Shown piece by piece: positions 24,380 to 47,070 of a DNA stretch of 64,000 nucleotides. A model generated the notes under the pieces. The model made no database searches and was not told the origin of the DNA. It saw only the letters and a list, made by a program, of their open reading frames with translations. Both the position numbers and the translations under genes were made by a program. The stretch is taken from assembly GCF_027925385.1 (NCBI RefSeq), contig NZ_AP027142.1, positions 2,966,501 through 3,030,500 on the forward strand. Reading direction: 5' to 3'. The DNA is from Methylocystis iwaonis. GTDB taxonomy: Bacteria; Pseudomonadota; Alphaproteobacteria; Rhizobiales; Beijerinckiaceae. Position 1 is the first letter of the stretch. Each line of letters opens with the position of its first letter.

Positions 24380-24388
24380 GTCGCTTCC

Positions 24389-25840: not shown

Positions 25841-25865
25841 GGCTTCAACTCACTGGTTCAGATGA

Positions 25866-26012: not shown

Positions 26013-26020
26013 ATCCTCCC

Positions 26021-27107: not shown

Positions 27108-27111
27108 CGGA

Positions 27112-27867
27112 TCACCTGACATTCGCTTTATCGTCGTAGATCTTGAAATCGACCGAGACGCCGAGATGCTGCAGATAGGCGACGAGCGCATCCTCCTCGG
27201 TCACACCGGATTTCGACGGCGAGTCCGTGAAGGCGGCGTTGGGATAACGCTTCTGCATCTCGCTCGCGCCCTGCGCGTCAGCGGAAAGCTGCGCGGCGAG
27301 ATCGCCCGGCGCGTTGTCGATCTGTTCGTCGGTGTAGGGCACGCCGACGACGCGCAGCGTCCGCATCTGCTCGGCGAGATGCTCGCCGTCGAGCGGCGTC
27401 TGCGAGAGGAAGGCGTAGCCCGGCATGATCGAGGACGGCACCACCGAGCGCGGGTTGCGCAAATGATCGCGATGCCAATCGTTCGAATATTTGCCGCCAA
27501 CACGCGCGAGATCGGGCCCCGTGCGCTTCGAGCCCCATTGGAACGGGTGGTCGTACATGCTCTCCGCTGCGAGCGAATAATGGCCGTAGCGCTCGACCTC
27601 GTCGCGTAAGGGTCGGATCATTTGCGAGTGGCAGGTGTAGCAGCCCTCGCGGATGTAAATATTGTAGCCCGCGAGCTCCAGAGGCGAATAGGGCCGCACG
27701 CCTTCCACCTGCTCGATCGTGTTCTTGAGATAGAACAGCGGCACGATCTCGACGATGCCGCCGACCGACACGAGAAGCAGGATGCCGACGATGAGCAGGA
27801 TCGAATTGGTCTCTAAGATTTTCTGAAGCCCGCCGCCGGCGGGCGCATGTTGAGCGGATTGCGACAT
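27112..27867 (-). CDS. ccoO: cbb3 oxidase mono-haem subunit CcoO
   Basis: CcoO is the membrane-anchored mono-haem cytochrome c of the oxidase. The 251-residue protein has an N-terminal membrane helix ([26 protein letters not shown]), the haem motif [11 protein letters not shown] and the characteristic [16 protein letters not shown] and [11 protein letters not shown] (Met ligand) segments. I chose the ATG at 27867 because a GAGGA site lies eight bases upstream; a GTG at 27882 overlaps ccoN and is less likely. It overlaps no gene and is 11 bases from the ccoN stop. Confidence 0.95.
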
Positions 27868-27878
27868 GGCTTTCGTCC

Positions 27879-29534
27879 TCACTCGGCAGGCAGGGGAGAG
27901 GCGGCGACGTCTTGCGCGGATTCGAGCGCGGGCGAGGCGAGCGTGCGCCAGATGTTGTAGACCATGATCAGCGCGCCGATGAGGAACAGCCCGCCGCCGA
28001 TAGCGCGGATGACATATTCAGGATGCAGCGCCTCAGTGGTCTCGACGAAGGAATATTCGAGGAAGCCTTGCGGCGTATAGGCGCGCCACATCAGCCCCTG
28101 CATGATGCCCGCCACCCACATCGAGGAGATGTAGAAGACGATGCCGATCGTCGAGATCCAGAAGTGCCAGTTCACGAGCTTGAGCGAATAGAGCCGTTTG
28201 TTGAACACCCAGGGAATGAGGCAGTAGAGCGCGCCGAAGGACACGAAGGCGACCCAACCGAGGCTGCCCGAATGCACATGGCCAATGCCCCAGTCAGTGT
28301 AGTGCGACAGCGAATTCACCGCCTTCACCGACATTAGCGGGCCTTCGAAGGTCGACATGCCGTAGAAGGCCACCGACACGACCAGCATGCGCAGCACCGG
28401 GTCCGTGCGCAACTTGTCCCAGGCGCCCGAAAGCGTCATCACGCCGTTGATCATCCCGCCCCAGGAGGGCATCCACAGCACGACCGAGAACACCATGCCG
28501 AGCGTCTGCGCCCAATCGGGCAGCGCGGTGTAATGCAGGTGATGCGGACCGGCCCAGATATAAAGGAAGATCAGCGCCCAGAAATGCACGATGGACAGCC
28601 GGTAGGAATAGATCGGCCGATCCGTGCGCTTCGGAATGAAGTAATACATGATGCCGAGGAAGCCGGCGGTGAGGAAAAAGCCCACGGCGTTGTGGCCGTA
28701 CCACCACTGGATCATCGCGTCCTGCACGCCGGCCCAGACGATGACCGATTTCGGCGAGAAGACCGAGATCGGAATCTCGACATTGTTGCCGAGCACCAGC
28801 ACGGCGACCGTCACGATGAAAGCGAGGAAGAACCAGTTCGCCACATAGATATGCGGCTCGGCGCGACGCGCGAGCGTGAAGAGATAGACGAGGAGATAAA
28901 CCACCCAGACGACGACGAGCCAGAGGATCGCGTACCATTCGGGCTCGGCATATTCATGCCCGCGCGTGACGCCGAGCAAATAGCCCGTGCCCGCGATCAG
29001 GATAAAGAAGTTGTATCCCAGCACGACGAACCAGGGCGCGAGATCGCCGGCGATGCGCGCGCGGCTCGTGCGCTGCATGATGTAGAAGGACGTCGCGAGC
29101 AGCACATTGCCGCCGAAAGCGAAGATTACCGCCGACGTATGCAGCGGCCGCAGACGCCCGAAATTGGTCCAGGGCAAATCGAGATTGAGCGCCGGATAGG
29201 CGAGCTCCAGAGCGAGATAGAGTCCGACGAGAAAGCCCGCGACGCCCCAGAACAGCGCGGCGATCGAGGTGAATTTGATCGGCCCGTAATTATAGTTCGG
29301 CCGGCCGTTGATCAGAAGCGGCGGCGGCGCCGCGTCCCTGGCGCGGAAACGCAAAACGATCGCGACGACGGCGCCGAGCGACCCAACCGCGAAAAGCGCC
29401 GCGTGGAAAGCGTAAGCGGGCGTATAAGCCTTGACGGCGATGAAGGCCGAGGCAATGGCCAAGGCTACGAAAACGGCGCTGAGAGATATCTCGCCGAAAG
29501 TCATTTGCTTGGGGATGGGGAGGGTACGCTCCAT
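27879..29534 (-). CDS. ccoN: cbb3-type cytochrome oxidase catalytic subunit CcoN
   Basis: CcoN is the haem-copper subunit that reduces oxygen at very low concentration and pumps protons. The 551-residue protein has about 12-14 membrane helices. Key histidine regions are present: [17 protein letters not shown] (low-spin haem ligand), [18 protein letters not shown] (CuB His and the cross-linked Tyr in helix VII) and LHYTALPDW and [10 protein letters not shown] (haem ligands). I chose the ATG at 29534 because an AGAGGA site precedes it by eight bases. It heads the ccoNOQP operon and is preceded by an FNR/FixK-type promoter. Confidence 0.97.
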
Positions 29535-29642
29535 GATCTTGTCCTCTGGAGGTTTCCGCATGTTTTCCGCGTTTGCGAGAACTCGCCGACGCCAATAGGG
29601 CGTGACAAAGTCTCACTGCGCTTTCATCGATTCACATTGGGT

Positions 29643-29866: not shown

Positions 29867-30268
29867 TCAGCAGGGGTAGAATCGGTGGTAGCCGAGAAGC
29901 GCCCCCAGCGGCTCGCTATGGCGCAATTGCGCGAGCGGACGCGTGAAGAAGTCATTGCTGCCCGAATAAGGATAGCCATAGTCGCAGGTCGGATCCGGCG
30001 ACGGCTGATCGCTCGGCGACGCAGCGACGAGCTGCGCGTAGGGCGCATAGAAACGCCGTCCCTCGAATGCGACCGGAACCCATTTGTCGCCCTCGCCAAG
30101 TATAATGAGTTCGGCGCCGGCGGGGACGGTCAGCGCAATGGGACGCCTGGCGCCCGGCCGCGTTCGCAAATCCACAGGGTCATGAAGCGTCAGCGCCCCC
30201 GCGAAAGCCGCGCTTATCGGGGCGATGAGAGCGACAATAAAAGCCAGTGTGCAAATGAAGCGCCGCAT
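29867..30268 (-). CDS. Secreted SH3-like domain protein
   Basis: The 133-residue protein has a signal peptide (CTLAFIVALIAPISAAFAGA) and a bacterial SH3-like fold core: LHDPVDLRTRPGARRPIALTVPAGAELIILGEGDKWVPVAFEGRRFYAPYAQLV. This pattern (a basic -LRTRPG- entry and -W-PV-... G--G-A) is common in SH3_3 domains that bind peptidoglycan or act in envelope maintenance. The C-terminal part has several Tyr/Phe residues and two cysteines that could form a disulfide. I chose the ATG at 30268 for the signal peptide. It lies just upstream of the ccoN promoter on the same strand with no evident operon link. Confidence 0.7.
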   Translation of the reverse strand: MRRFICTLAFIVALIAPISAAFAGALTLHDPVDLRTRPGARRPIALTVPAGAELIILGEGDKWVPVAFEGRRFYAPYAQLVAASPSDQPSPDPTCDYGYPYSGSNDFFTRPLAQLRHSEPLGALLGYHRFYPC

Positions 30269-30627
30269 ATTGTCTCCTAAGGCGTCGTCAAACAAAAACT
30301 GACAACCGCTCCCTTTCGAACGGCTCGTCGGGCGCCGTCATTCCCGATCGCTCGCTTCGTGAGCGTCGGGAATGACAACGGTGTGCAACCGGGCGGCGCA
30401 CGCGGACCAATGACGCGGACGACGCACCAGGACGCCGGCCTGTGCGCCAGCGCAACTTCTCTCTTCCTCACATAGTCTAGAAGAAAAACGGCTCGTCTCA
30501 AATTCGGACGAAGGAGCGCGTCATGGCAATGGGGAACAAGCCGTCGGACGGCCTCGACTCCTGCGCAAAGCTGGTCCTATCTTCCTGTCGCGGCGGCTGC
30601 GCCGCGCGCGTTTATTATGGTGGCCTC
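30269..30627. other. 359-base gap before the giant envelope gene
   Basis: It contains a short family A hairpin at 30337-30376 and the upstream region of the giant gene. An in-frame ATG at 30523 has a good AAGGAG site (30511-30516), making it an alternative start. I see no other features. Confidence 0.5.
30337..30376. repeat. Family A half-element
   Basis: GTCATTCCCGATCGCTCGCT and its complement CGTGAGCGTCGGGAATGAC form a single 40-base hairpin. This corresponds to one arm of the full 104-base element. Confidence 0.7.
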
Positions 30628-33600
30628 ATGCGGCGCATTGCTTTTTCCCTTCTGGCTGCGGGCGCAGCCTATTTCTTCTCCTCCAGCTTCTCCCTCGCCA
30701 AGGACAAAATTGCCGAGGTCCGGCCTGCCGCCGCCGCCATAACGGTCTCGCCAAAAGAGGTTGCGCTCGACAAGGACGGCGCCAGCCTGCTGACGATCCC
30801 CGCGCCCGGCCGCTATTCCATCCGCGCCAAAAGCCCGACAGGCGCGCGCATCGAGCTCGTCGACATGATCGCAGGGCCGCTGGAATCAGCCGGCGCGGCG
30901 GGGTTGCGCGACGGGCGGATCGATGCGCTGCTCGACAAGGGCGTCTATAAATTGCGCATCGGCGCCGTGAAGAACGCGAGCGGCAAGGCGAGCGTCGCCG
31001 TCGAGCCCTTCGCCGAAGTCGAGACCGCGCGCCCGACGCTGGGCCCCGGCGTGACGCAGAGCGGCGAGCTGGGCGATCTGCAGCAGCGCTCCTATGAGCT
31101 CAACGTAACGACCGACAAGCCTGTCTATCTGGAGGCCGTCGGTCGCGCCCTGCAGGATCTTCGCGTCTGGCAGGCCGATGGCGCGCTGGCCGATCTCGCC
31201 TTCGAGCGCACGACGATCGAGACGCGGCCGGGCCATTCCGTGAACCGCGTACGACTCGAAGGGAAGCTCCCCGCCGGCCGCTATGTCGTCACCGCCTATG
31301 GCGGCGAGAAGCTCGTCTGGCCGGACGGCTCCCCTGCGCAACCCTTCGCGCTGCACATGGCGGAGCCCGCGCTGCTTGCGGCCGGCGTCGCCGAGGGCGT
31401 GATCGGCCCCTCCGGCTCGGCGCGCTTCGAGGCGCCGGCAAGCTATGATTCCTTCCGTCTCGAACTGCCGCAACAGGCCTCGGCGCGCCTCGAAGCGAAA
31501 CGCGGCGGCGCGCGCGATGTCGCCTCGATCGGCAAATCCAGCCGTGCGCCCGTCGCCACGCTGCGTCTTGCCGGCGACAGCGTCTCGCCCGCGCGCCTGG
31601 AAGTGACCGGCTATGAGGGCCAGTCCTACACGCTGCACGCCGTTCATCAATCGAACCGCGAGACTTTCGAGGGCGCCGGCCCGCATCTCGTCTCGATCGA
31701 CGTCGCCGGAGAAGGCGGCGACGAGGCGCCTCTCACCGCGCTCTTCGCGCGCATCGAGAGAGACGGGCGCACGCGCGTTCTCGCCTCGGATATGCCGCGC
31801 ATCGGCGCCGGTAAGGCGTGGCGCGGCAAGTTCAATCTGCTCGGTCCCGTGTCGCTGCTCTTCGAGGCGACGCGCGACGGCCAGGTCGCGATCAACGCAA
31901 AGGGCGTGCGGCTGCATGCGAGCGTCGAGCCGGCGCTGGGCAATCTCGCCCCACACGCGACAGCGAAGGATTCGAACGTCTACGATCTCGTCGCGGGCTT
32001 TTATCTGCTCACGCTGGAGCCCGTGAACGGCGCCGGCGGCGTGGTCGACGTCACGCTCGGGCCCCCCGGCCTCACCGCGCCCCAGCCCACGGCTTTGCCC
32101 TCGCGCGCGTCTCTCTCCTTCGGCGAGCAGACGTTGGATTCGAACGGCGCCTATCTCATCCTCACGAATGTCGCGCCGCAGCTTCTCACCGGCCCGCGCG
32201 TCGTCCCGCTGCCCGCCGATCTGACCAAAGCGCCGCTCGCGCTGCATCAAGCGGCCGGGCAGGAAATCTCGGTGACGCTGCGCGCGCCCAATGGCGGAAA
32301 GATCGTCGCGCGCGACGCCACCGGCGCCGATGTGCCTCTCTCCTTCCCGCAGGAAAAGGCGGAACGGGATTACCGCATCCTCACGGCGACGATCGCCCCC
32401 GCCGCCAAGGAGCGCGCGCTCGCCATCATCTATCTGCCCGAGACGCTCGTCTCCATGCCGGAGACGCCCGATGGCGCCGAGATCGCCAAGACGCGCGCGG
32501 CTTCTGGTCGCCCCGCCTTCTTCGATCTCAAGCGGGATGAAACAAAAAACGTCCCCTTCGATGTCGCGCAGGGCGGGCTCTATCGGCTCGAAACGCTCGG
32601 ACGCATGAAGACGGCGCTGCGCATCGGCGCGATCATGTCGCCCAAGCTTGCCGAAGGAGAAGCCAACGGCCCCGGCAATAATGCGCTGGTCACCACTTTT
32701 CTGCGCGCAGGCGCTTATCGCGCCGTCGTCACGGCAAAAGACTCCGCCGGCCATCTTGGCCTTTCGGTCGCGCCGGCGTCGCTGACGCCAACCCCCAAGA
32801 TCACCGACAAGGGCGTTGCGCGCGCGACACTCGCGCCGGCGAACGGCGCCATCGTTCCGATCGAGATCACCCGCGCGGGCGATTATCGCCTGGAGCTTTT
32901 CAGCCTGACGCAGCAATGGCAGGCGCGTCTCGAAGACGCCGACGGCTGGCCGCTGACCAAGCCCGGCGCCTTCAAGCGCGAGACCCAACATTTGGAGCCC
33001 GGCGCCTATCGCCTTGTGGTGAGCCCCGCCGACGCCGAAGCAAGAATGATCGCGCGCGTGACGCCGATCGTCGCCGAGGCGGCGCTCGAAGGCCATGGCC
33101 CGCATCCCCTGCCCTTCGAGAAGCCCCAGAAGCTGCAATGGCGCGAGCCGCAGGCGAAGGACGCGCCGCGCGCGCCGGACGTCTGGCGCTTCACCCTGCT
33201 GGGCGACTCCGACATCGAGCTTTCGATCGGCGAAGGCATGATCGGCGATATCGTGAAGGGCGACGCCGAGAACGTTGGCAAAGTGGTGGGCGACCGTCCC
33301 TTCAAGGGCAAGCTCGGCGCCGGCGATTATCGGGTCGAGGCGCGCAGCCTCGCGCATGATGACCGGCTCGATTACGAGATCACGCTGTCGTCCGATCAGT
33401 TGCAGCCCGGCGCGCCGCAGCGCGTCGACCTGCCGGCGACGCTCGACTTCAATCTGGCCAAGGAAAGCGTCGTCGATCTCTCGACTTTCGGCGACAAGGA
33501 AACGATCGGAGTTCTGAAAACCGCCGCAGGCGACTTGGTGGAGCGCCTCGAACCGCGCGCCAGTGACTGGAATGTGGCGCTCGCCCGCCGCTTGCCCGCC

Positions 33601-35766
33601 GGCGCCTACAAGCTGGAGCTGGAGGAACTTGGCGCAACGCGCAAGGCCGCGTCGGACGCGGCGAGCGACACGCAGGCGTCCGACGATTCGGAAGCGGATT
33701 CGGGCGAGGAATCCGCTTCGACTGACAACGCCGCCTCCGACGAAAACACGCAGACGGAAAGCGAAGAGGATGACAGCGGCGTCGAGGTTCGTCTCGCGAT
33801 CATGAGCGAGACGGATGGCGCGCCGCTTGCCGCGAGTGGCGAGGCGGTTCTGACGGGCGCCGGCGCGCAGCGGCTCGCTTTGCCCGCCACGCCCGCCGGC
33901 GCGCTGGCGCTTGTCGCCGCGCGTTCGACCGCAGAAGTCGCCATTTCCATCGAGCATCGCGAGACCAATGGCGAGTGGCACGTGATCGGCGCCGACCGCG
34001 GCCTCGCGCCCGTCGCCGCATGGCCGTCTACGGGCGACAAGAGCGAATGGCGCGTGACCGCATGGCCCGTCGGCGGCGGCGCGGAGCCCATCACGATTGC
34101 GGCGCGCGCCATCGACCGCCGCGCGCGCAGCCCCGGCGACATTGCTTTCGAAACGGTGAGCGACGTCGCGCCTCAGCTCTGCGTCGCCAAGATCGACACG
34201 CCCAGCGCGGCGCTCGTCGACGTGACGACGACCGACGCCCTTATCGCCGGTTCGACGCAAGGCCGCCTGCTGCGCCCCGTGCGCTCGGGCGCGCTCGCGC
34301 CGCAATCGCAGGCGCTGTGGCTGATGACGCGCGACTGCAAGACAAAACCCCGCGTCGCCGCCTTCGAATGGCTCGGCGAGGAGATCGCGCTCGACATCGG
34401 CGAAGGCGAACGCGCCTTCCTGCCGCCGCTCGGCGCGCCGCGCGGCAAGACGCGGCTGTGGCTGACGCGCTCGACCTTCACGCAGTCGGCGATCGACGCC
34501 GCAAACGGCATGGGCGTCGCTGAGGGCGCCGCGCTGGCCCTTGCAAGCGACGCCGCCCCACAATTGTGGAACGCGAGCAACGCCAGCGCGATGCGCGCCA
34601 CGCTTTCGGCGATGGACGTGGAGACGCGCCCGGCGCTGAATGGCGGCGCGCTCTTTGCGGGCGTCATTCCGCCGATGAGCGCGCAGCCTGTAGACATGGA
34701 GAAATCCGACGCGCCGCTCGCCCTCGACCTCGCCGGCGGCCTCGCAGCCTTCATCGACAAACGCGGCGTCTTCGGCGACGGCGCCTCCGTCTCGCGAACG
34801 ATCCACGGCGCCGGCGCGCATGTGCTGCTCGTCAACACGACGAATGCGCCGCTGCCCGCCCGCATTGCGCGCGCAACCGAAGCAAGCGTCACTCTTAACA
34901 CGAAGACCGCACTCAAGCGCTTCTTCGGCGTCGCCGGCCAGCTCTCTCTCCCGGCCGACGCGCAGAAGGGCGATCGCCTCATCGTTATCGGCGCCGACGC
35001 GACCTTCGTCTCGCAGAGCGGGCGCATTCTTCGTGGGCGCGACCTCTCACTCGACGGCGCCGGCGAAGCCATACTCGATTACAAGCCCGGCCTCGTCGCC
35101 GCCTGGATCGAACGCAACGGCGCCGCGCCTTGGACGCTTCCAACTGCGCACGCGATCGACTTGCCGCAACGCGTCACGCTCGAAGGCCAGGCCATGCGAT
35201 TCGCGATCAAGCGCGAGGCGCCCGCGATGCTCACCGCGTCGAGCGGCTCCCCCGCGCTGATCTCCTTCACGCAGAACGGCAAGCGCGAAACCTTCGCCTT
35301 CCCCGCGGGCGTCGAATTCCGCCACTATGCGGCGGCGGGCGACGCTGCGCTCGACATCTATGCGCCGAATGAGGGCGCGCTTTCGGGTGCGCTCGACCTC
35401 GCCGCACAGAAGGTGATTGAGGCGCATGAAGGCGTGAACGACGCCATCGCCGTTGCACCCGGCGCCAGCGCGCTTTTCTCCTTCGAGACGAAACGCGACG
35501 CCGACGTCGGCATTGGCATACGCGCCGAGCCCGACCGCGTGAGCGCACGGCTTCTCGACGCGAGCGGCAAGACGCTCTCCGAAGGCGTCAACCAAATCAC
35601 GAAGCTCGCGCCGAGCCGCTATTTCGTGGAAGCGCGCGTCCCTGCCGACGCCAGCGCGACAACCATTCGCGCTGCGATTGTTGGCCTATCGCCCCCGCCT
35701 GCGACGCCGCCGGAAGAAGCCGTCGCCGACCTCCTCGACAAGGCCGGCATGAGGAAGAGCAAATGA
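30628..35766 (+). CDS. Giant secreted beta-rich protein of unknown function, next to alpha-2-macroglobulin
   Basis: I do not recognise a family for this 1712-residue protein. A signal peptide (RRIAFSLLAAGAAYFFSSSFSLA) predicts export. Short strand motifs of the form (A/P/R)-G-x-Y-x-(L/V) recur about eleven times (APGRYSIRA, DKGVYKLRI, PAGRYVVTA, QGGLYRLET, RAGDYRLEL, EPGAYRLVV, GAGDYRVEA, PAGAYKLEL, among others), suggesting repeated beta-sandwich modules like pre-peptidase C-terminal domains. An acidic Ser/Asp/Glu linker lies at about residues 1003-1050. No protease, glycosidase or thioester motif is visible. The ATG at 30628 starts the signal peptide; the ATG at 30523 has a better ribosome site but adds 35 residues. 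The A2M gene follows after 121 bases on the same strand, suggesting joint action in the periplasm. Confidence 0.75.
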   Translation: MRRIAFSLLAAGAAYFFSSSFSLAKDKIAEVRPAAAAITVSPKEVALDKDGASLLTIPAPGRYSIRAKSPTGARIELVDMIAGPLESAGAAGLRDGRIDALLDKGVYKLRIGAVKNASGKASVAVEPFAEVETARPTLGPGVTQSGELGDLQQRSYELNVTTDKPVYLEAVGRALQDLRVWQADGALADLAFERTTIETRPGHSVNRVRLEGKLPAGRYVVTAYGGEKLVWPDGSPAQPFALHMAEPALLAAGVAEGVIGPSGSARFEAPASYDSFRLELPQQASARLEAKRGGARDVASIGKSSRAPVATLRLAGDSVSPARLEVTGYEGQSYTLHAVHQSNRETFEGAGPHLVSIDVAGEGGDEAPLTALFARIERDGRTRVLASDMPRIGAGKAWRGKFNLLGPVSLLFEATRDGQVAINAKGVRLHASVEPALGNLAPHATAKDSNVYDLVAGFYLLTLEPVNGAGGVVDVTLGPPGLTAPQPTALPSRASLSFGEQTLDSNGAYLILTNVAPQLLTGPRVVPLPADLTKAPLALHQAAGQEISVTLRAPNGGKIVARDATGADVPLSFPQEKAERDYRILTATIAPAAKERALAIIYLPETLVSMPETPDGAEIAKTRAASGRPAFFDLKRDETKNVPFDVAQGGLYRLETLGRMKTALRIGAIMSPKLAEGEANGPGNNALVTTFLRAGAYRAVVTAKDSAGHLGLSVAPASLTPTPKITDKGVARATLAPANGAIVPIEITRAGDYRLELFSLTQQWQARLEDADGWPLTKPGAFKRETQHLEPGAYRLVVSPADAEARMIARVTPIVAEAALEGHGPHPLPFEKPQKLQWREPQAKDAPRAPDVWRFTLLGDSDIELSIGEGMIGDIVKGDAENVGKVVGDRPFKGKLGAGDYRVEARSLAHDDRLDYEITLSSDQLQPGAPQRVDLPATLDFNLAKESVVDLSTFGDKETIGVLKTAAGDLVERLEPRASDWNVALARRLPAGAYKLELEELGATRKAASDAASDTQASDDSEADSGEESASTDNAASDENTQTESEEDDSGVEVRLAIMSETDGAPLAASGEAVLTGAGAQRLALPATPAGALALVAARSTAEVAISIEHRETNGEWHVIGADRGLAPVAAWPSTGDKSEWRVTAWPVGGGAEPITIAARAIDRRARSPGDIAFETVSDVAPQLCVAKIDTPSAALVDVTTTDALIAGSTQGRLLRPVRSGALAPQSQALWLMTRDCKTKPRVAAFEWLGEEIALDIGEGERAFLPPLGAPRGKTRLWLTRSTFTQSAIDAANGMGVAEGAALALASDAAPQLWNASNASAMRATLSAMDVETRPALNGGALFAGVIPPMSAQPVDMEKSDAPLALDLAGGLAAFIDKRGVFGDGASVSRTIHGAGAHVLLVNTTNAPLPARIARATEASVTLNTKTALKRFFGVAGQLSLPADAQKGDRLIVIGADATFVSQSGRILRGRDLSLDGAGEAILDYKPGLVAAWIERNGAAPWTLPTAHAIDLPQRVTLEGQAMRFAIKREAPAMLTASSGSPALISFTQNGKRETFAFPAGVEFRHYAAAGDAALDIYAPNEGALSGALDLAAQKVIEAHEGVNDAIAVAPGASALFSFETKRDADVGIGIRAEPDRVSARLLDASGKTLSEGVNQITKLAPSRYFVEARVPADASATTIRAAIVGLSPPPATPPEEAVADLLDKAGMRKSK

Positions 35767-35782
35767 GTCGGCCGAACATTTG

Positions 35783-35842
35783 GACCGCGAGCCTTCAGGC
35801 TCGCCGGAGAGGTGCGAGCCTGAAGGCTCGCGGTCCAACTCG
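35783..35842. repeat. Palindromic intergenic repeat, family E copy 2
   Basis: GGACCGCGAGCCTTCAGGCT and AGCCTGAAGGCTCGCGGTCC are complementary arms separated by about 14 bases. It begins 16 bases after the stop of the giant gene and may attenuate transcription into the macroglobulin gene. Confidence 0.85.
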
Positions 35843-35887
35843 CGCCGAACGCCCGTCCTTCAACCCAATTTTTGCATGATTGAGCCA

Positions 35888-38800
35888 ATGAAAGTCGCAG
35901 CGATGAAAAAGACTCTTGCTCTGTGCTTTTTGGCGGCGGTCTCTTTCGCTGCGCCGCTGCGCGCCGAAGCGCCGCCGGTTTTCGACCGCGCGCAACGCGC
36001 CGACGGCGCCCGCATTACGCCCGACCGTTTCCTGCGCGCCTATGATCCGCTGACGATCTTTTTCCCCGGCGACGTCGGCCCCAAAGCCGGCGGCCCCGAG
36101 GACTTGCCCGCGAAATACGCTTCCATCACGCCACAACCCGCCGGCGAATGGCGCTGGATTGGCGCGCGCGCCCTGCAGTTCCGCCCGGCCGAGCCCTGGA
36201 AGCCGCTCTCGCATATCACAGTGAAAAGCGGCGGCGCCGAGCAGAAGCTCGTCGCATTGCTGCCGACGCCTGTTTCCAACAATCCTTCAGCGAGCGACGA
36301 TCCGACGCCCGAATTGACGCAGGTCGCCCTCACTTTTGCGCAACCCGTCGATGTCGCCGCGCTCGCGCGGCTCATGACGGTCGAGCTGCGTCCCGCGCCC
36401 GGCGTCTCGGCGCAGGGCGGACAGATTCTAAGCCCCTCCGCCTATGATATTCGCCCCCTGGAGCGTGCAGGCGCCGCCGCCGAACAGACCTATGTGCTGC
36501 GGCTGCGCGACAGCATCAATGATGGCCGCGTTGCGATTTTGCGACTGAAGCTCTCTGACGAGCCTGGTCTCGACGACGAAATTTACGAGCTGCGCATTCG
36601 CACCGCCCTTCCCTTCGCCGTGACGGAAACGACATGCGGGCGCGGCTGGAGCGACGAGAGGCTCGGCGGCGTGCTGCGCTGCGCGGCGAATGGCGATGCG
36701 CCGGCGCCCGAAAGCGGCGACGAGGAAGGCGGCGACGCCGCTTCGACCTATAATCCCACAGCCAGACGCCGCCTCACCTTGAGCCTCAACGCCGAGCCCG
36801 AGACGCTTGATATTTTGCGCGCGCGCGACGCCTTGCGCATCACGCCGCCGGTCGACGATCTTGCCGTTGAATCCGACTCGAGCCATCTCAAGATCACCGG
36901 CAAATTCCTCTCCGACAAAGCCTATGAGCTGTCGATCGCGCCCGGCGCCATCAAGGACAAGCGCGGCCGTCCGCTCGCCGCGCAATTCACGCAGCGCTTC
37001 GCCTTCACGCGCGACAATCCGGCTTTGCAATGGGACGCGGGCTATGGCGTCGTCGAGCGTTTCGGCGCGCAGCTCCTGCCGTTGCGCGGTCGCGGCTATG
37101 ACCGCGCCGACATCCGCATCCACGCTATCGATCCGCTCGCGCGCGACTTCTGGCCCTTCCCGGAGCATGGCGCCGAAACCATCGACGCCGAAACGCCGCC
37201 GCTTCCCGGCAATGAGCCTTCGCGCTGGAGCGAGAGCGGCAATATCGAAGCCGAGGCCATCAAGGAGCGGATTAAAATGTTCGGCTCGCCGGCGGTCTCT
37301 CGGCTTGTCGATCTGCCGATCAAGCGCAATGGCGTGGACGCCAAATTCGGCGTTGATCTGAAAGACGACTTCGCGCGCGTTGCGGGCCGCGAGCAGCCGG
37401 GAACCTATCTCGTCGGGCTTCGCGCCGTCGACAGCGACAAGCGCAAATGGCTGCGCGTGCAGGTGACGGATCTTTCGCTTTCCGCCATTGAGGAGCCCAC
37501 GCGCGTGCGTTTCGCCGTGACGTCGCTCGCCACGGCGCAGCCGATCAGCGGCGCGCAAATCCGCGTCGAAGGCGTGAAGGACGACAAATTCACTACGCTC
37601 GCGAACGGCGTGACCGACGCGAACGGCTTTTTCTCATGGAGTCCGATCAAGCGCGGCGACGGCGAATTGCGCCGCGTGGTCGTGAGCAAGGGGCTCGACA
37701 CGCTGGTGATCGATCCAGATAGCGCGCCATCGGAATATTCCAGGGAACTATGGTCGAAGCCCGAGGCGCAATGGCTCTCCTGGGTTTCCGAAACAGATTC
37801 GCAGCGCGCCGAGAAACCGCGCACGCTCTGCCATGTGTTTTCGGAGCGGCCGATCTATCGGCCGGAGGAGCCCGCCCATATCAAGGGCTTTGTGCGCAGC
37901 TATGTCGGTGGCGCGTTGAGGCTCACGAAAACCGGCGGCACGCTCGTCGTCACGGCGCCGAACAATCAGGAATGGCGCGTGCCGGTGAAGCTCGACGCCA
38001 GCGGCAGCTTCTATCACAAATTCGACGCGCAGACGCAGGCGACCGGAGATTATTCGGTGAAGTTCGAGCCCGATGCGCCGAAAGCAAAAAAGCCTGAGAA
38101 GAGCGAAGAGGCAGACTCCGCCGAGGGCGAAACGGCGGAAGTCGCGCAGGATACGTCCTGCGGACAATTCACCTTCAAAAAGGAGGCTTACCGCCTGCCG
38201 ACCTTCGAGGTCGTGCTCAACGCGCCGCAGACAGTCGCGCTCGACGGGACCTTCGACGTGGATCTTCTCGCACGCTATTTCGCCGGCGGCCTCGCGGCGG
38301 ATCGGCCCATCAAATGGCGCGCCGCGCAATTCCCGCATGTGTTCACGCCGCCGAACCGCGAGGGCTTTCTCTTTTCCACTGACGCACGCTTTTCGAGCGA
38401 CGGCAAATTCAAATCGACGGCCGTGCTGGAACGCGACGCGCGCACCGACGCCGGCGGCGCCGCGCGCATGACCTTCGACACGACGATCGAGCCAACCGCG
38501 CAGCCGCGCCGCTACTCGATCGAAGCAACGGTGACGGGCGATGATGGAATCGAAGTGCGCAACGTCCAGAACGTCATCGCACTGCCGCCCTTCGTGCTCG
38601 GCGTGAAGACGCCGCGTTACGTCGAAAAGCCCGGCGCCGTGACGCCGGAGCTCATCGCGGTCGACGGCAAGGGAGAGACGATCGCGGGCGTCGAGATGAC
38701 GCTGCGGCTCATCAAGCGCAATTGGATTTCGACGCTGCAGGCGAGCGACTTCGCGCAAGGCGCCGCAAAATATGTCACGCAGGTGCAGGACGAGACCGTC

Positions 38801-41725
38801 TTCGAGCGCAAGGTGACGAGCGCCAAGGAGGCCCAGAAGATCGAGCTGACGACGAAGGACGCGGGCGTCTATGTCGTGCAGTTAGAAGCCTATGACAAAT
38901 TGAAGCGCCGCCAGCAGGTGAGCGTCGATTTCTTCGTCGGCGGCGACACGCCCGTCACCTTCGCGCGCCCGCCGGCCGCCTCGGCCACGATCACCACCGA
39001 CAAGGAGAAATATGCGCCCGGCGAGACGGCCACGCTGGTCATCCAGTCGCCGTTTCAGAACGCGCGCGCGCTCGCCATCGTCGAGCAGCCGAACGGCGTC
39101 TATGACTACAGCTACGTCGACATCGCCAATGGCTTCGGCCGCTTTACTTTGCCGGTGAAGAAGGAGCAGACGCCCAAGCTCGCCGTGCATTTCCTGATCA
39201 TGCGCGGGCGCCTCAAGGACAGCGCGCCGCTGCCCTCTAGCAATTTCGATCAGGGCAAGCCCGTCACCATCGCCGCGACCAAATGGGTCGAGGTGACGCC
39301 GGTGAAAAACATCGTGAACGTCAAGCTGGAAGCCCCCGCAAAGGCGCGCCCCGGCCAGGAGGTCGAGGTGACATTGAAGCTCGCCGACGACACAGGCAAG
39401 CCGATCGCGGGCGAAGCGACCTTCTGGATGGTCGATCAGGCGGTGCTCTCGCTCGCCAAGGAGCGCCCGCTCGATCCGCTGCCGGATTTCATCGTGGCGC
39501 GCGAGACGAAAATGGCGGCGCGTGACACGCGCAACATGGCCTTCGGCGTCATTCCGCTCGAAGAGATTGCGGGCGGCGACGCCGAGCTTCAGGAATGGGG
39601 CGCGGAGAACAACATCTCCGTGCGCAAGAATTTCACGCCCGTGCCGATCTATCTGCCCAGCGTGAAAGTTGGCGACGACGGCGTCGTAAAAATCAAGGTT
39701 GCGCTGCCCGATACGCTCACCGTGTTCAAGCTGCGGGCCAAGGCGGTGAGCGGGCCGGATCGTTTCGGCGCCGCGGGCGGCGAGATGTTCATCCAGCAGG
39801 AGCTCGTCGCGCAGCCGGCTTTGCCGCGCTTCATCCGCCCCGGCGATTCTTTCGACATCGGCCTCGTGGCGCGCGTCGTGGAGGGCCCCGGCGGCGCCGG
39901 CAAGGCGGCGATCTTTGCGCCGACGCTGAAACTCGCAGGTGAGACGAGCCGCAAGATCGAGTGGGCGCAGAACAAGCCGGTGCGCGTCGATCTGCGCGCG
40001 GAGGCGCCGGCTTCGCTCGAAGACAGCGTGAAGCTCAACTTCCGTATCGACCGCGACGTCGACCGTGCGAAAGACGCTGTCGAGATCGACCTTCCCGTGA
40101 AGCCCGATCGCGAGCCCACGCGCCGCTATGAGGTTGTCGAAATCGCACAGGGCGAAACCAAGACGCTTGCCGTAACGGGCGAAGCAAGCCGCCCCAAGAC
40201 CTTCTCGCGCAACATCGTCGTCGCAGCCGATCCGGCGATCGTCAAGCTGGTCGCCGGCCTCGACATGCTCGTCGATTATCCCTACGGCTGCACCGAGCAG
40301 CGGCTTGCGCTGGCGCGCGCCAGCCTGTCGCTCAAGGGCTTCTCGCCAATCCTCTCGGCGGCGGGCCTGCAGGATCGCGTCTCCGCGAGCGTGCGAAACG
40401 CGGCGATGCAGATCGAGCAATCGGTCGACAGCGACGGGCTCGTGGCCTTCTGGCCGCGCGCGCGCGGCAATGTGCTGCTCACCGCCTGGGCCTACGCCTT
40501 CCTCGCGCACGCCGATCGCGCGGGCGAGCCGGTCGACAAGACTCTGATGGATCGGCTGGCCAACATTCTGAAACTCTCGCTGCGTTCCGACTATGCGCGC
40601 CTGCTCGGCGGCGAAGAAATGCGCGAGCGCGCGGCGGCGCTCGCAGCGCTTGCGGAAGGCGGCAAGCTCGACGAATCTTACGTCGCGGAATTCGCGCGCC
40701 GCGCCGATTTCCTGCCGAATGAAAGCGTCGCCGAAATGGCGGCGGCGGCTGCGCGCCTTGCCAATGTCGATCAGCGCATTCTCGCTTCTCTCATGGAGAC
40801 CATGTGGGGCCGCGTGAAATTCGCGAACCGCGGCGGCGCGCAAGTCTATGCGGGCATGGCGGGCGAAAGCGCTTCCGACGTCATCCTGCCCTCCGAGACG
40901 CGCAGCCTCGCGGAGATGCTGCGCGCGGCGGCGCTCGCCGCGCCCTCCGATCCGCGCGCGCCGGTGCTACGCGACGCGCTGCTGCGGCTGGGCGAAGGCG
41001 ACGGCTGGGGCAGCACAAACGCCAACGCCAGCGCCATCGAAGCGCTCGCCGAAGGTTGGCGCCGCCCCGTGACGCCGATCACCGTCGCCTTCGCGCAAGG
41101 CGGCGCGCCCGAGACTGTCACGATTGACGCCAACAATCCCGTGGCGCGCCATGCGAGCGACAAGGACGCGCCGCTGACCATCGCCAACACATCGAACGCG
41201 CCACTGATCGCGCTCGTAGAGACGCGCTACATGCCCGCCGAGACCGGCGCCAAAGCGCAGGCTGCAAGCGAAGGCTTCGTCATTACGCGGCAGAGTTGGC
41301 GCGTGAAAAACGGGCTGGCCCCGGAGAAGTTAGAGGCGGCCAATGGCGCCTTGCGCGTGAACCAGGGCGACGTCATCGAGGAGACGGCGGAAGTCGTGAA
41401 CCCTGAAGATCGCACTTATGTCGCGATCTCTTTGCCGCTCGCGGCGGGCTATGAGCCGCTCAATCCCAATATCGCGACGGCGCCCGCCGAAGCCCAGCCC
41501 TCCAGCGCGCCAACGCTCGCGCCGACCTGGGTCTCGTATGGCGATGATCGCGTGCTCTATGCGTATGACTCGCTGCCCAAGGGCAATTACCGCTTCGCCT
41601 TCCGCCTCAAGGCGCAAACGGCGGGGGCCTATACGCAACCGCCCGCGCTTGTGGAGACGATGTACAAGAAAGGCCTGCGCGGCCAGAGCGCCGGCGCGCG
41701 CGTGGAAATCGCCAAGCAGCCATGA
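35888..41725 (+). CDS. Bacterial alpha-2-macroglobulin, large (YfhM type)
   Basis: Bacterial A2M traps foreign proteases in the periplasm and covalently binds them through a buried thioester. The 1945-residue protein has a signal peptide (LALCFLAAVSFAAPLRAEA), several MG-type beta domains, the A2M domain (AEATFWMVDQAVLSL ... LPDTLTVFKLRAKAVSG) and the thioester motif YPYGCTEQR with Cys1468 and Gln1471 intact, followed by the helical thioester domain. E. coli YfhM is a lipoprotein; here there is no lipobox, so the protein looks soluble. An acidic insert lies near residue 735. The stop overlaps the pbpC start (ATGA), the classical A2M-PBP1C coupling. Other in-frame starts are 35876 and 35903. 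Confidence 0.93.
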   Translation: MKVAAMKKTLALCFLAAVSFAAPLRAEAPPVFDRAQRADGARITPDRFLRAYDPLTIFFPGDVGPKAGGPEDLPAKYASITPQPAGEWRWIGARALQFRPAEPWKPLSHITVKSGGAEQKLVALLPTPVSNNPSASDDPTPELTQVALTFAQPVDVAALARLMTVELRPAPGVSAQGGQILSPSAYDIRPLERAGAAAEQTYVLRLRDSINDGRVAILRLKLSDEPGLDDEIYELRIRTALPFAVTETTCGRGWSDERLGGVLRCAANGDAPAPESGDEEGGDAASTYNPTARRRLTLSLNAEPETLDILRARDALRITPPVDDLAVESDSSHLKITGKFLSDKAYELSIAPGAIKDKRGRPLAAQFTQRFAFTRDNPALQWDAGYGVVERFGAQLLPLRGRGYDRADIRIHAIDPLARDFWPFPEHGAETIDAETPPLPGNEPSRWSESGNIEAEAIKERIKMFGSPAVSRLVDLPIKRNGVDAKFGVDLKDDFARVAGREQPGTYLVGLRAVDSDKRKWLRVQVTDLSLSAIEEPTRVRFAVTSLATAQPISGAQIRVEGVKDDKFTTLANGVTDANGFFSWSPIKRGDGELRRVVVSKGLDTLVIDPDSAPSEYSRELWSKPEAQWLSWVSETDSQRAEKPRTLCHVFSERPIYRPEEPAHIKGFVRSYVGGALRLTKTGGTLVVTAPNNQEWRVPVKLDASGSFYHKFDAQTQATGDYSVKFEPDAPKAKKPEKSEEADSAEGETAEVAQDTSCGQFTFKKEAYRLPTFEVVLNAPQTVALDGTFDVDLLARYFAGGLAADRPIKWRAAQFPHVFTPPNREGFLFSTDARFSSDGKFKSTAVLERDARTDAGGAARMTFDTTIEPTAQPRRYSIEATVTGDDGIEVRNVQNVIALPPFVLGVKTPRYVEKPGAVTPELIAVDGKGETIAGVEMTLRLIKRNWISTLQASDFAQGAAKYVTQVQDETVFERKVTSAKEAQKIELTTKDAGVYVVQLEAYDKLKRRQQVSVDFFVGGDTPVTFARPPAASATITTDKEKYAPGETATLVIQSPFQNARALAIVEQPNGVYDYSYVDIANGFGRFTLPVKKEQTPKLAVHFLIMRGRLKDSAPLPSSNFDQGKPVTIAATKWVEVTPVKNIVNVKLEAPAKARPGQEVEVTLKLADDTGKPIAGEATFWMVDQAVLSLAKERPLDPLPDFIVARETKMAARDTRNMAFGVIPLEEIAGGDAELQEWGAENNISVRKNFTPVPIYLPSVKVGDDGVVKIKVALPDTLTVFKLRAKAVSGPDRFGAAGGEMFIQQELVAQPALPRFIRPGDSFDIGLVARVVEGPGGAGKAAIFAPTLKLAGETSRKIEWAQNKPVRVDLRAEAPASLEDSVKLNFRIDRDVDRAKDAVEIDLPVKPDREPTRRYEVVEIAQGETKTLAVTGEASRPKTFSRNIVVAADPAIVKLVAGLDMLVDYPYGCTEQRLALARASLSLKGFSPILSAAGLQDRVSASVRNAAMQIEQSVDSDGLVAFWPRARGNVLLTAWAYAFLAHADRAGEPVDKTLMDRLANILKLSLRSDYARLLGGEEMRERAAALAALAEGGKLDESYVAEFARRADFLPNESVAEMAAAAARLANVDQRILASLMETMWGRVKFANRGGAQVYAGMAGESASDVILPSETRSLAEMLRAAALAAPSDPRAPVLRDALLRLGEGDGWGSTNANASAIEALAEGWRRPVTPITVAFAQGGAPETVTIDANNPVARHASDKDAPLTIANTSNAPLIALVETRYMPAETGAKAQAASEGFVITRQSWRVKNGLAPEKLEAANGALRVNQGDVIEETAEVVNPEDRTYVAISLPLAAGYEPLNPNIATAPAEAQPSSAPTLAPTWVSYGDDRVLYAYDSLPKGNYRFAFRLKAQTAGAYTQPPALVETMYKKGLRGQSAGARVEIAKQP

Positions 41726-43944
41726 GCCGCCTAGCGCTTCTCGTCGCGCTCGCTTTCGTCGCGACGGCGCTACGCGGCGGGCTCATGATCTGGCAGGAGG
41801 CCGCGCGCGGCGCCGATCTTACTGCGCCGCCCGCGAGCCAGATCGTCTATGACCGCAACGGCGCCTTTCTCACGCAGATCGGCAACGCGACCCAGGGCGA
41901 GAAAGGCGAGAAGCGCGTCGACTACGGCTATTGGCCGCTGGAGCGCATCCCCGAGCGCGTCGCCCGCGCGACGCTCATTCTCGAAGACCGGCGCTTTTAC
42001 GCGCACTCCGGCGTCGATCCGCGCGCCGTGGCGCGGGCGCTGTGGAACAATCTCGCCCATCGCCGCCAAATGGAGGGCGCCTCGACCATCGCCATGCAGG
42101 TCGCGCGCATGCAGCGGCCGGGGCCGCGCACATACGCCAACAAATTCTGGGAAGCGGCGACAGGGCTCGCGATCGTTGCGCGCCAGGGGCGCGAGGCGAC
42201 GCTCTCCCATTATCTGCGCCTTGCGCCCTATGGGCTCGGCAGCCACGGTATTTCGCACGCTGCGCGCTTCTATTTCGACAAGCCGGTCGATGATCTCTCC
42301 TGGGCGCAGGTGGCGCTGCTCGCCGCTATTCCGCAATCGCCGGGCCGCATGAACGTCACGCGCGAGAGCGGCCTGCGGCTCGCCGTCGAACGCGCGCGCT
42401 ACGCCATTGCGCAGCTCGAAAAAGAGGGCGCGCTCGACGCCGCCCAGGCCGAATTGGCGCGGCGCGAGCTTGCCGCCATGCGGCCGCTCGCGCCCAAGCG
42501 CCGCCCGGAGACGCTGCATCTCGCCTTGCGCTACGAACGCCTTGCGCGCGAAGGCCGCGTGCGCGCGACCTCGCAATATGATCCGCGCATCCATGCGACC
42601 ATCGACCTCTCCATCGAGCGCGAGGCGACGCAGCTCGCGCGCCGCTACCTCTCCATCTTTCGCAACGCCGGCGCGCGGCAGGTAGCGATCATGGTGGCGG
42701 AGCGCGGCTCCAACGCCATCATCGCCGATGTCGGCTCCGCCGATTATAACGATCCGCGCGCCGGCGCCTTCGATTTCACCCGCGCGCCGCGCTCGCCCGG
42801 CTCGACGCTCAAGCCGTTCATCTATGCGCTCGCTTTGGAGCGCGGCGCGCTGAAGCCCACCGACCTTCTCGACGATCTTCCCGAAGGCGCCTCGGGCGTT
42901 TCCAACGCCGACGGCCTCTACCTCGGGCCGCTGACGCCGCGCCAGGCGCTCGCCAATTCGCGCAATGTGCCGGCGACCAACCTGCTGCGCCGCGTGGGTC
43001 TCGAGGCAAACTTCCTGTTCCTGCACGAGCTCGGCCTGCACGATCTCGAAGCGACGCCGGAAAGCTTCGGCGTCTCCATGGCGATCGGCGCCTTGCCGAC
43101 GCGGCTCGAACGCCTGATGCGCGCCTATGCGGCGCTCGCCGACGACGGCGTGATGCGCGATCTCTCTTTCGCGCGCGACGAAGAACGCGCGCCCCCGCGC
43201 CGCGTCATGTCGCTCGACACGGCGCGGCTGGTCACGTCGTTCCTCGCCGATCCACAGGCGCGCCTGCCCTCCTTCCCGCGCTACGGGCCGCTCGAATATC
43301 CTTTCGCCGTCGCCGTGAAGACCGGCACCTCGCAAAATTATCGCGACGCCTGGGCGCTCGCTTTCTCGCACAAATTCATTGTCGGCGTCTGGATCGGACG
43401 CGGCGACGCGAGCGGCATGCGCGCCCTCACGGGCGCCAGCTCAGCGGCGCGGTTGGCGCATGCGATGATGACGAAGCTGCATGGGACGAAACCCGGCGAC
43501 CTCGCGCCCGAGGCTTTCGCGCCGCCGCCTGGGCGGGTCGCCATCGATCTCTGCCGTGCGGACGCCGGGCCGGAGTGCCCGCAGACGCTGCGCGAATGGG
43601 TGCGGCCCGACGAGATTTCCGCCCGGCCCGCCGCGCACGCCCCGGCGGCCGTCGAAGAGGCGCTCGCAGCGGAGAGCGGCGCGCTCGTCATCGCGACGCC
43701 CGAGCACAATATGCACATCTGGCGCAATCCGGAGCAGCCGGCTCCCTTGAACAAGCTCGCTTTGAAGCTCGCTGATGGCGGAAAGGACGCCCAAATCGTC
43801 TGGTTGGTCGACGGCGCGCCTTTCACGGTTGCGCAGGCGGATGAGACCGTCTTCTGGCCGATGACGCCCGGCGCGCATCGTATTCAGGCGAGATTGGCTC
43901 TGGCCCCCGTGGCGTCGCGCCCGGTGCGGGTGATCGTTGAGTGA
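41722..43944 (+). CDS. pbpC: Penicillin-binding protein 1C
   Basis: PBP1C is a bifunctional-looking peptidoglycan synthase anchored in the inner membrane, functionally paired with alpha-2-macroglobulin and thought to repair the wall after attack. The 740-residue protein has an N-terminal membrane anchor (LALLVALAFVATALRGGLMIW), a GT51 glycosyltransferase domain (ILEDRRFYAHSGVD with catalytic Glu88; GASTIAMQ) and a transpeptidase domain with SPGSTLKP (Ser361), SRN (Ser413) and KTGTS (Lys533). The C-terminal BiPBP_C domain (from about residue 650) is the PBP1C hallmark. It overlaps the A2M gene by four bases. Confidence 0.95.
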   Translation: MSRLALLVALAFVATALRGGLMIWQEAARGADLTAPPASQIVYDRNGAFLTQIGNATQGEKGEKRVDYGYWPLERIPERVARATLILEDRRFYAHSGVDPRAVARALWNNLAHRRQMEGASTIAMQVARMQRPGPRTYANKFWEAATGLAIVARQGREATLSHYLRLAPYGLGSHGISHAARFYFDKPVDDLSWAQVALLAAIPQSPGRMNVTRESGLRLAVERARYAIAQLEKEGALDAAQAELARRELAAMRPLAPKRRPETLHLALRYERLAREGRVRATSQYDPRIHATIDLSIEREATQLARRYLSIFRNAGARQVAIMVAERGSNAIIADVGSADYNDPRAGAFDFTRAPRSPGSTLKPFIYALALERGALKPTDLLDDLPEGASGVSNADGLYLGPLTPRQALANSRNVPATNLLRRVGLEANFLFLHELGLHDLEATPESFGVSMAIGALPTRLERLMRAYAALADDGVMRDLSFARDEERAPPRRVMSLDTARLVTSFLADPQARLPSFPRYGPLEYPFAVAVKTGTSQNYRDAWALAFSHKFIVGVWIGRGDASGMRALTGASSAARLAHAMMTKLHGTKPGDLAPEAFAPPPGRVAIDLCRADAGPECPQTLREWVRPDEISARPAAHAPAAVEEALAAESGALVIATPEHNMHIWRNPEQPAPLNKLALKLADGGKDAQIVWLVDGAPFTVAQADETVFWPMTPGAHRIQARLALAPVASRPVRVIVE

Positions 43945-43997
43945 CGACGCTCCACCCAACGGCCCTCACCGACCGGGAAGCCAGGGCGACCACTGTC

Positions 43998-44077
43998 GTC
44001 ATTGCGAGGAGCGTAGCGACGAAGCAATCCAGAGCAGCTACTGCGGCCCTGGATTGCTTCGCTTCGCTCGCAATGAC
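43998..44077. repeat. Palindromic repeat, family B copy 3
   Basis: GTCATTGCGAGGAGCGTAGC at the left and its partner GCTTCGCTCGCAATGAC at the right enclose AGCAATCCAGAGC and CCCTGGATTGCTT. It lies between pbpC and the zinc operon. The rest of that 285-base gap holds the Zur site near its right end. Confidence 0.85.
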
Positions 44078-44194
44078 GGGTGGATTGCACGCTGCTCATA
44101 AACACACTGCGACTCCTCTCCCCGCTTGCGACCGTAAACGGGAGAAGGAGTGCTCATCATCTGCGCTAAACCAGGCGCAAAGCGAAAGCAGCCC

Positions 44195-44222
44195 TTGTTC
44201 TTATCAGGCGTTATATTATAAC
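44195..44222 (+). promoter_or_regulatory. Zur-type operator and promoter of the zinc operon
   Basis: GTTATATTATAAC at 44210-44222 is a perfect 6-1-6 palindrome matching alphaproteobacterial Zur boxes (TGTTATA-type half-sites). TTGTTC (44195-44200) and TATAAC (44217-44222), 16 bases apart, could be the -35 and -10, so Zur would cover the -10. The start point would then be at about 44228-44230, right at the ATG of the first gene (44230), implying a leaderless or nearly leaderless transcript. The factor identity is inferred from sequence and from the downstream genes. Confidence 0.75.
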
Positions 44223-44229
44223 ATCAAGC

Positions 44230-44424
44230 ATGACCGACGCGACCCAAGGCCACCGCCACGCCCACGACCACGCGGTCCTGCGCGCGCAAGGGCTTGCCCA
44301 ATCGGCGGACCGCGCGCCCCCCGCGCGCGCGTCGCTGCTCGAAGCTTCAGCCGTCGCGCGTCTTTCCGGCGTTTCGCTCGCCATCGCCGCCCTTTGGGCC
44401 GGCGTTTATTGGGCGCTCCATTGA
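44230..44424 (+). CDS. Small His-rich single-span membrane protein of the zinc operon
   Basis: The 64-residue protein has a His/Asp-rich N-terminus (GHRHAHDHAV), a middle helical part and one C-terminal hydrophobic segment (LSGVSLAIAALWAGVYWAL). I know no named family. It starts eight bases after the Zur palindrome and ends five bases before znuC, so it is the first gene of the zinc-uptake operon. The His cluster suggests metal binding at the membrane, perhaps as a small regulator or chaperone of the transporter; this is inference. No Shine-Dalgarno is visible, consistent with a leaderless mRNA. Confidence 0.65.
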   Translation: MTDATQGHRHAHDHAVLRAQGLAQSADRAPPARASLLEASAVARLSGVSLAIAALWAGVYWALH

Positions 44425-44429
44425 GGAGC

Positions 44430-45194
44430 ATGGCGTCGCCGGGGCCGATTCGCCTCGTCAATCTCACGCTCGGCTATGACCGCCGCCCCGCCGTCCATCA
44501 CCTCGAAGGCGAGATTGCGCCCGGCGCCGCGCTCGCCGTCTGCGGCCCGAACGGCGCAGGCAAATCCACTTTGTTGAAAGCCCTCGCGGGCCTCCTCCCG
44601 CCGCTTGGCGGGCGCATCGAGCGCGGCGGCGCAACGGCGCGCGAGATCGCCTATCTCCCGCAGCTCGTCGACATCGACCGCTCCTTCCCGATCAATGTGC
44701 GCGATTTCGTCGCCATGGGCGCCATGCGTCGGGTCGGGTTGTTCGGCCGCCTCGACGCCGGAGAGCGGGAGCGCGCCGCGCAGGCCATCGACCGCGTCGG
44801 CCTCGCCGGCATGGAGGATCGCCCGATCGACACGCTTTCCGGCGGCCAGATGCAGCGCGTGCTGTTTGCCCGGCTCATCGTCCAGGACCAGCGCGTGATT
44901 CTGCTCGACGAGCCCTTTGGCGCCATCGACGAAGCGACGACCGACGATCTCCTCGGCCTCATCGCGCAGTGGCGCGGCGAGGGGCGCACCATCGTCGCCG
45001 TGCTGCATGAGCTCGATCTCGCCCGCCGCGCCTTCCCGCAGACCCTGCTGCTCGCCCGCGAGCGCATCGCCTGGGGCGAAACCGGCGCGACGCTCTGCGC
45101 CGACAACCTCGCCCGCGCGCGGGCCATGTCGGAAGCCTATGACCGGCAGGCGCGCGAATGTCTGAGAGACGAAGAAGCGGCTCATGCTCACTGA
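44430..45194 (+). CDS. znuC: Zinc ABC transporter ATP-binding protein
   Basis: This is the ATPase of a cluster 9 (Zn/Mn) ABC importer. The 254-residue protein has Walker A GPNGAGKST, Q-loop (LPQ), signature LSGGQMQR, Walker B VILLDEPFGAID and the switch His in VLHELDLA. I chose the ATG at 44430, preceded by GAGGAG; the open frame upstream overlaps the small His-rich gene and is not protein-like. The stop overlaps the start of znuB by 11 bases. Zinc specificity is inferred from the Zur box and the CobW gene. Confidence 0.9.
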   Translation: MASPGPIRLVNLTLGYDRRPAVHHLEGEIAPGAALAVCGPNGAGKSTLLKALAGLLPPLGGRIERGGATAREIAYLPQLVDIDRSFPINVRDFVAMGAMRRVGLFGRLDAGERERAAQAIDRVGLAGMEDRPIDTLSGGQMQRVLFARLIVQDQRVILLDEPFGAIDEATTDDLLGLIAQWRGEGRTIVAVLHELDLARRAFPQTLLLARERIAWGETGATLCADNLARARAMSEAYDRQARECLRDEEAAHAH

Positions 45195-46934: not shown

Positions 46935-46943
46935 GCTTCCCCC

Positions 46944-47060: not shown

Positions 47061-47070
47061 GCGACAGCAT

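Follow-up and report, generated by a model that had tools for sequence, protein, structure and literature searches.

Does a very large exported protein encoded directly upstream of an alpha-2-macroglobulin (A2M) gene and a penicillin-binding protein 1C (PBP1C) gene belong to the same system, or is it a chance neighbor? We addressed this question at one locus of Methylocystis iwaonis, within a 64,000-nucleotide stretch of contig NZ_AP027142.1 (positions 2,966,501 to 3,030,500; hereafter, the window). Budd 2004 is said to be the founding paper on the A2M-PBP1C pair. A2M is proposed to trap periplasmic proteases and PBP1C to repair the wall (PMC4498604, PMC5764988). We computed gene order, co-inheritance, co-loss, signs of joint transfer, the match between A2M and PBP1C subtypes, and some of the domain folds. 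The module is a three-component variant of the known A2M-PBP1C pair. Judged from sequence, its first protein, here called X, is probably the third part of this protease-trap system rather than a chance neighbor because the set appears to have been gained, lost, and moved together. The features of the module, all on the forward strand of the window, are as follows.

30628..35766, forward strand: X, an exported 1712-residue protein; open reading frame from ATG 30628 to the stop at 35764-35766
30628..30705, forward strand: signal-peptide-like N terminus of X, residues 1-26, boundary judged by eye
35888..41725, forward strand: A2M of the X-associated type, 1945 aa, with a signal-peptide-like start and a bait region
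40289..40300, forward strand: thioester motif CTEQ, residues 1467-1470 counted from base 35891
41722..43944, forward strand: PBP1C-like bifunctional transglycosylase/transpeptidase with BiPBP_C; its start overlaps the A2M stop by 4 bases

An earlier note on this DNA had described three same-strand genes, the first encoding 1712 residues and lying 121 bases before the second, and the open reading frames and Pfam domains bear this out. The start at ATG 30628 gives X a signal peptide of the MRRIAFSLL type, common to many relatives. An alternative start at ATG 30523 (1747 aa) has the better Shine-Dalgarno-like sequence, with GGAG just 5′ of it, but its 35-residue extension is poorly conserved, and public records of X relatives include both shorter and longer forms. 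No membrane anchor is visible in X, which is present as a single copy in the 4.48-Mb genome. For A2M, the most likely start is ATG 35888, giving the 121-base gap; the domain, NCBIfam, family-genome, PDB, flank, and motif searches used the protein from base 35891 (1944 aa), and the plasmid A2M search and gene trees used it from base 35888. The MG2, bait-region, A2M, and bMG10 domains all exceed their Pfam cutoffs, as in type I bacterial A2M, and CTEQ matches the CXEQ thioester pattern. The genome holds one A2M (bMG10 model). It shares 20-30% identity, over parts only, with the canonical A2Ms that we found, and it has no match among PDB sequences at E 0.001. A simple pattern search found no lipobox in it; the lipobox does not separate the A2M types, since one X-type locus (L068) carries one within the signal-peptide region and its absence is also usual among canonical A2Ms of this bacterial family. 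The third gene has Transgly, Transpeptidase, and BiPBP_C domains over the Pfam cutoffs and scores 438.4 bits against the NCBIfam equivalog TIGR02073, under the 494.2 cutoff, yet this is its best family; by its sequence, the gene at 41722-43944 is a diverged PBP1C.

X follows this type of A2M closely across the window's bacterial family. Of 298 family genomes, 48 carry X, representing 8 of 41 genera, and the window A2M matched 63, 48 of them strongly and 15 weakly (≤30% identity). The 48 strong genomes are exactly those with X, and the two genes are adjacent and on the same strand in every one (the A2M place in one genome, G155, was taken from a separate locus search). A median of 29 bases separates their matched stretches, the spacing being 12-29 bases in 25 of the 48. 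Of 42 loci tried, 20 were readable by script, and in 13 of these a possible A2M start lies in a 4-base overlap with the X stop. These loci were picked by the X-tail pattern, and conservation of the C-terminal tail G(L/I)xPPxxxPP...L..G therefore rests on a separate alignment, where it holds in all 13 rows. Among the 14 weak-A2M, non-X genomes examined out of 15 (G309 was left out), PBP1C occurs in 13 and an X match in none. Likewise, none of the 11 canonical A2M loci with visible upstream sequence (L075-L085) has an X match; L086 and L087 end at A2M, with the upstream side unseen, and L088 is a short A2M match with no PBP1C. Single irregularities appear in individual genomes: the X genome G322 holds, in addition, a weak A2M fragment of canonical appearance; the A2M matches in G010 (C6) and G036 (C1) contain TAG; and A2M in G014 (C85) and X in G034 (C269) are each split over two frames, the last four being assembly errors or real lesions.

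PBP1C comes after A2M wherever the contig reaches (34 loci), except at L061, L062, and L074. In the three genomes concerned, G007, G185, and G207, PBP1C (65-66% identical) lies elsewhere and the X-A2M pair is intact; X-A2M linkage is thus tighter than A2M-PBP1C linkage. The set is also lost jointly. Three genomes of the window's genus (G003, G008, and G033; 92-99% complete) have neither X nor any bMG10 A2M, and they are without a PBP1C ortholog as well: their best matches are other PBPs at no more than 159 bits (≤31% identity over most of the length and up to 37% over the transglycosylase part), compared with 699-973 bits for orthologs among the five further relatives that were searched.

Sampling more widely, we found X in 2 of 397 genomes of the order, both from the window's genus and one of them the window's own. 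In the phylum sample, 177 of 397 genomes have an A2M match, three at more than 2,700 bits and the other 174 at no more than 145 bits; the three genomes with strong X are the same three (equal settings and handles suggest that the X and A2M searches drew on one set of 397 genomes). One of the three, G721, is assigned to Magnetococcales through its A2M record; there, X ends within ∼50 bases of an A2M of the window type. The consistent linkage to A2M-PBP1C that the earlier note set as a check was found in all 48 family X genomes, in all seven plasmids described below, and in all three strong-X phylum genomes; neither homologues mostly without an A2M neighbor nor a confident match to an unrelated family appeared in these samples. 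The idea of X as a third member holds for the distinct A2M type but not for A2M-PBP1C in general, since 174 of the 177 phylum genomes with A2M are without strong X. Six weak X-profile matches in the phylum sample (E 3e-7 to 9e-4) were not counted as X: three are proteins of ∼500-560 aa with PPC-like domains, PF04151 being over the cutoff in two and below it in the third, and the other three were only re-scored. X relatives from Archangium/Myxococcaceae (P0178 and P0179) share 26-33% identity with the query across 13-48% of it. By name, the long X-associated A2M type extends beyond Alphaproteobacteria to Desulfobacteraceae, Gammaproteobacteria, Acidobacteria, and Myxococcales (among the best 120 of 521 matches).

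The module also occurs on plasmids. X is found in 7 of 72,556 plasmid records, all from Rhizobium, and all seven carry X, A2M, and PBP1C in order. The same seven are the records in which A2M is matched over at least 80% of the query; coverage is lower in the other 69 of 76 (as read among the best 40 of the 76 matches). In the four annotated Rhizobium plasmids, the flanking genes differ, with two sharing some. The thioester Cys of the Rhizobium A2M is replaced in all five aligned sequences, by Ser in L092, L093, L094, and L098 and by Pro in L095, and a motif search found no CXEQ in L096 or L097 either; the three-gene order is retained despite this loss. In L096 (a Rhizobium sp. C104 plasmid), all three genes lie in several broken frames at 14001-27436, a decaying copy of the module.

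We built gene trees from 23 of 43 X-type loci (from the window, L031-L044, L055-L074, L092-L098, and L108) and 11 of 14 canonical loci, leaving out L096 with its broken genes and the canonical pieces L086-L088. The A2M and PBP1C trees were rooted on the canonical set and the X tree at its midpoint, and local support was read only for the split between X-type and canonical loci. This split has a support of 0.96 in the A2M tree and 0.84 in the PBP1C tree. The trees of X, A2M, and PBP1C share their main groups, and in all three the Rhizobium set falls within the family X loci, a pattern that accords with the module having been transferred to Rhizobium plasmids as one unit.

What kind of protein is X? 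A Pfam scan returned nothing over the cutoffs (best E 0.036), in line with the earlier note, which could name no described family: X reaches no curated family cutoff. Searched against the PDB, the sequence profile of neither half had a match below E 0.16, and the leading rows from a viral structure library are large proteins with low TM-scores. Structure models show an array of ∼15-17 β-sandwich domains (counted by eye; the borders of d1-d17 were placed by eye from models and motifs), and those that could be identified have the fold of PPC/collagen-binding domains. At least six domains are related to one another by profile comparison; only 7 of 136 profile pairs exceed a probability of 50, which falls short of a common origin for all of them. 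The PPC model PF04151 has no match in the window X at E 1, although the X relative P0173 has one below the cutoff (E 0.04). X is therefore an uncharacterized family built at least partly from a known fold, and it differs from the PPC/collagen-binding domains of PF04151, ColG, and ColH in this missing match and in having no attached protease. The fold makes a ligand- or protein-binding role reasonable, as the earlier note had proposed for ligands; the adaptor or decoy suggested there would go beyond this evidence, as would contact with A2M. The repeated G-x-Y motifs that it had pointed to are likewise real: X holds 11, against 2.4 ± 1.5 in 2,000 shuffles (maximum 9), and 10 of the 11 sites recur in 26-50 sequences of a 50-sequence alignment that includes X, the site at residue 507 recurring in 17. 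A disordered acidic linker lies near residues 1004-1048. We also considered X as an A2M-like array of MG domains and did not adopt this reading. C3/A2M chains fill several of the top Foldseek rows; their TM-scores (0.04-0.10) and root-mean-square deviations (above 30) point to a superposition of long β-chains only, and the Pfam scan found no MG family in X at E 1.

Some relatives carry an additional domain. X relatives from Rhodoblastus, Rhizobium, and others have an N-terminal LprI domain (PF07007), among them P0149 and 12 of the 16 proteins P0105-P0120; the X of L063, L064, and L065 aligns with the LprI N terminus (by alignment, not domain scan), and L073 was noted together with these loci. 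PF07007 has no match in the window X or elsewhere in its genome. In the Methylocella-like loci L066 and L068, X seems to keep only a cysteine-containing LprI remnant; Methylocystis and Methylosinus X show no sign of one.

Two known arrangements frame the comparison. Type I pairs (Escherichia coli yfhM-pbpC and Salmonella SaA2M) likewise place PBP1C after a thioester A2M in the same orientation (PMC4498604). The window set differs in its additional upstream X, its diverged 1945-aa A2M, and a PBP1C in a separate clade; the canonical pair has no conserved third upstream gene, whereas X adjoins every A2M of the window type in the family (48 of 48). The type II mag operon of Pseudomonas aeruginosa (magABCDEF) resembles the module in having an A2M with extra operon partners that bind and stabilize it: MagD is bound 1:1 by partners, and its location and stability are determined by MagB (PMC5764988). 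In contrast to the mag operon, the window A2M keeps its thioester and PBP1C belongs to the set, and X, as one 1712-residue array of β-domains, is set apart from MagA, MagB, and MagF as far as these are described there. We found no description of X with A2M in the literature that we searched, a statement limited to those searches.

We lean, with somewhat more confidence than doubt, toward X-A2M-PBP1C as one three-gene periplasmic defense module, a variant of the A2M-PBP1C pair in which X is an obligate A2M scaffold. X is exported, and its PPC-like binding domains form one long chain; it would bind its A2M, keeping it stable and in place in the periplasm, and may hold it on peptidoglycan or PBP1C, where the conserved C-terminal tail could serve for docking. 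Proteases entering the periplasm would then be trapped by A2M beside the site of wall repair. Since X stays with A2M where PBP1C leaves, we infer that it fits best as a Mag-like A2M partner. Several points weigh against such a scaffold. Linkage and co-loss indicate a shared pathway, not contact, and many genomes hold a canonical A2M-PBP1C pair but no X. Since 29 of the 48 positive family genomes belong to the window's genus, the 48 cannot be counted as independent cases, and the three strong phylum cases include the window genome and another of its genus. With no visible membrane anchor, X does not copy the anchoring by MagB; because it stays with Rhizobium A2Ms that have lost the thioester Cys, it is not tied to thioester chemistry; and it evolves faster than A2M (∼42% versus 58% identity between the window and Rhizobium). 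A bolder extension, which we regard as speculative and unlikely, is a mobile three-tier periplasmic immune module in which X blocks or captures wall-cutting enzymes or their carriers, A2M traps proteases covalently or mechanically, PBP1C rebuilds the wall, and X holds the complex, guarding free-living and plant-associated bacteria against predators, injected effectors of rivals, or host enzymes.

Other roles for X were weighed against the same evidence. It is unlikely that X is simply a structural envelope layer that binds the wall or polysaccharides and is co-regulated with A2M and PBP1C without contact: PPC/collagen-binding-like domains serve as binding modules in collagenases, and X is long with at least six mutually related domains, but such a layer would not easily account for the strict association of X with a single A2M subtype, for the co-loss, or for the persistence of X where PBP1C departs. 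We also doubt, a shade more strongly, that X inhibits peptidoglycan-cutting enzymes through its many domains, with lysozymes, delivered muramidases, or endogenous lytic transglycosylases as targets, and so completes a three-way shield with A2M and PBP1C. The LprI domain on X relatives and a PliG-like fold would suit it, yet the PPC fold is common, the PliG match is tied with noninhibitor folds, and the window X and its genome are without LprI. The SG-type loop motif, a feature of Pli families (PMC5507604), is absent from X in each form sought (SxSGxxY, SGxxY, and SGxY), and at no site does it occur in 10 or more of 50 aligned sequences; a lysozyme inhibitor by motif was rejected. In Salmonella, the LprI protein ScwA conferred no lysozyme resistance and affected the level of a lytic transglycosylase (PMC7933661). 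Given the missing Pli motif and this result for ScwA, we keep the inhibitor as a rival and as the boldest reading.

That X helps A2M to be exported or folded and stays outside the finished complex seems quite improbable. X is the first gene and may overlap A2M translationally at 13 of the 20 readable loci; its size and domain makeup are, in our general judgment, unlike those of known chaperones. The least credible option by far is a neutral neighbor kept by common descent. The concentration of 29 of the 48 genomes in one genus would accord with it, but the three-gene order recurs on Rhizobium plasmids with partly different flanks (four annotated records), the X-A2M pair occurs in Magnetococcales, and all three genes are jointly missing from three genomes.

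What A2M does for free-living bacteria, and the reason for its association with PBP1C, are so far matters of proposal. A third gene whose inheritance, loss, and apparent transfer go along with a distinct A2M-PBP1C subtype offers a direct handle on the system. Binding of X to A2M would make the system a complex, whereas blocking of wall hydrolases by X would supply the missing link in the double role of protease defense and wall repair. The presence of the module on Rhizobium plasmids and in cultivated methanotrophs makes it experimentally testable with laboratory strains that are harmless.

The gap between X and A2M holds one further feature.

35780..35838, no strand assigned: 25-bp perfect inverted repeat (35780-35804 and 35814-35838) with a 9-base loop

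Its 16-base core has 109 matches in the genome (53 + 56, at most 1 mismatch); it is a REP-like dispersed palindrome and was not seen to belong to the function of the module. Promoter and terminator scans stayed near shuffle level (1 versus 0.9 and 16 versus 13.8 ± 3.6, respectively). Antisense to X, a 1311-aa open frame runs at 30886-34821 on the reverse strand; we take it as an artifact because long antisense frames are common in the window. Farther out, the upstream flank (26021-29561, reverse strand) is presumably a cbb3-type cytochrome oxidase cluster, and the downstream flank (43941-48216, forward strand) we take to encode a metal ABC transporter and a histidine-rich CobW-like GTPase, both judged by eye. 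A small divergent gene lies 5′ of X (29867-30295, reverse strand) with a weak SH3_3 match below the cutoff; 14 of 34 loci have a relative of it at the same place, and the other 20 have none.

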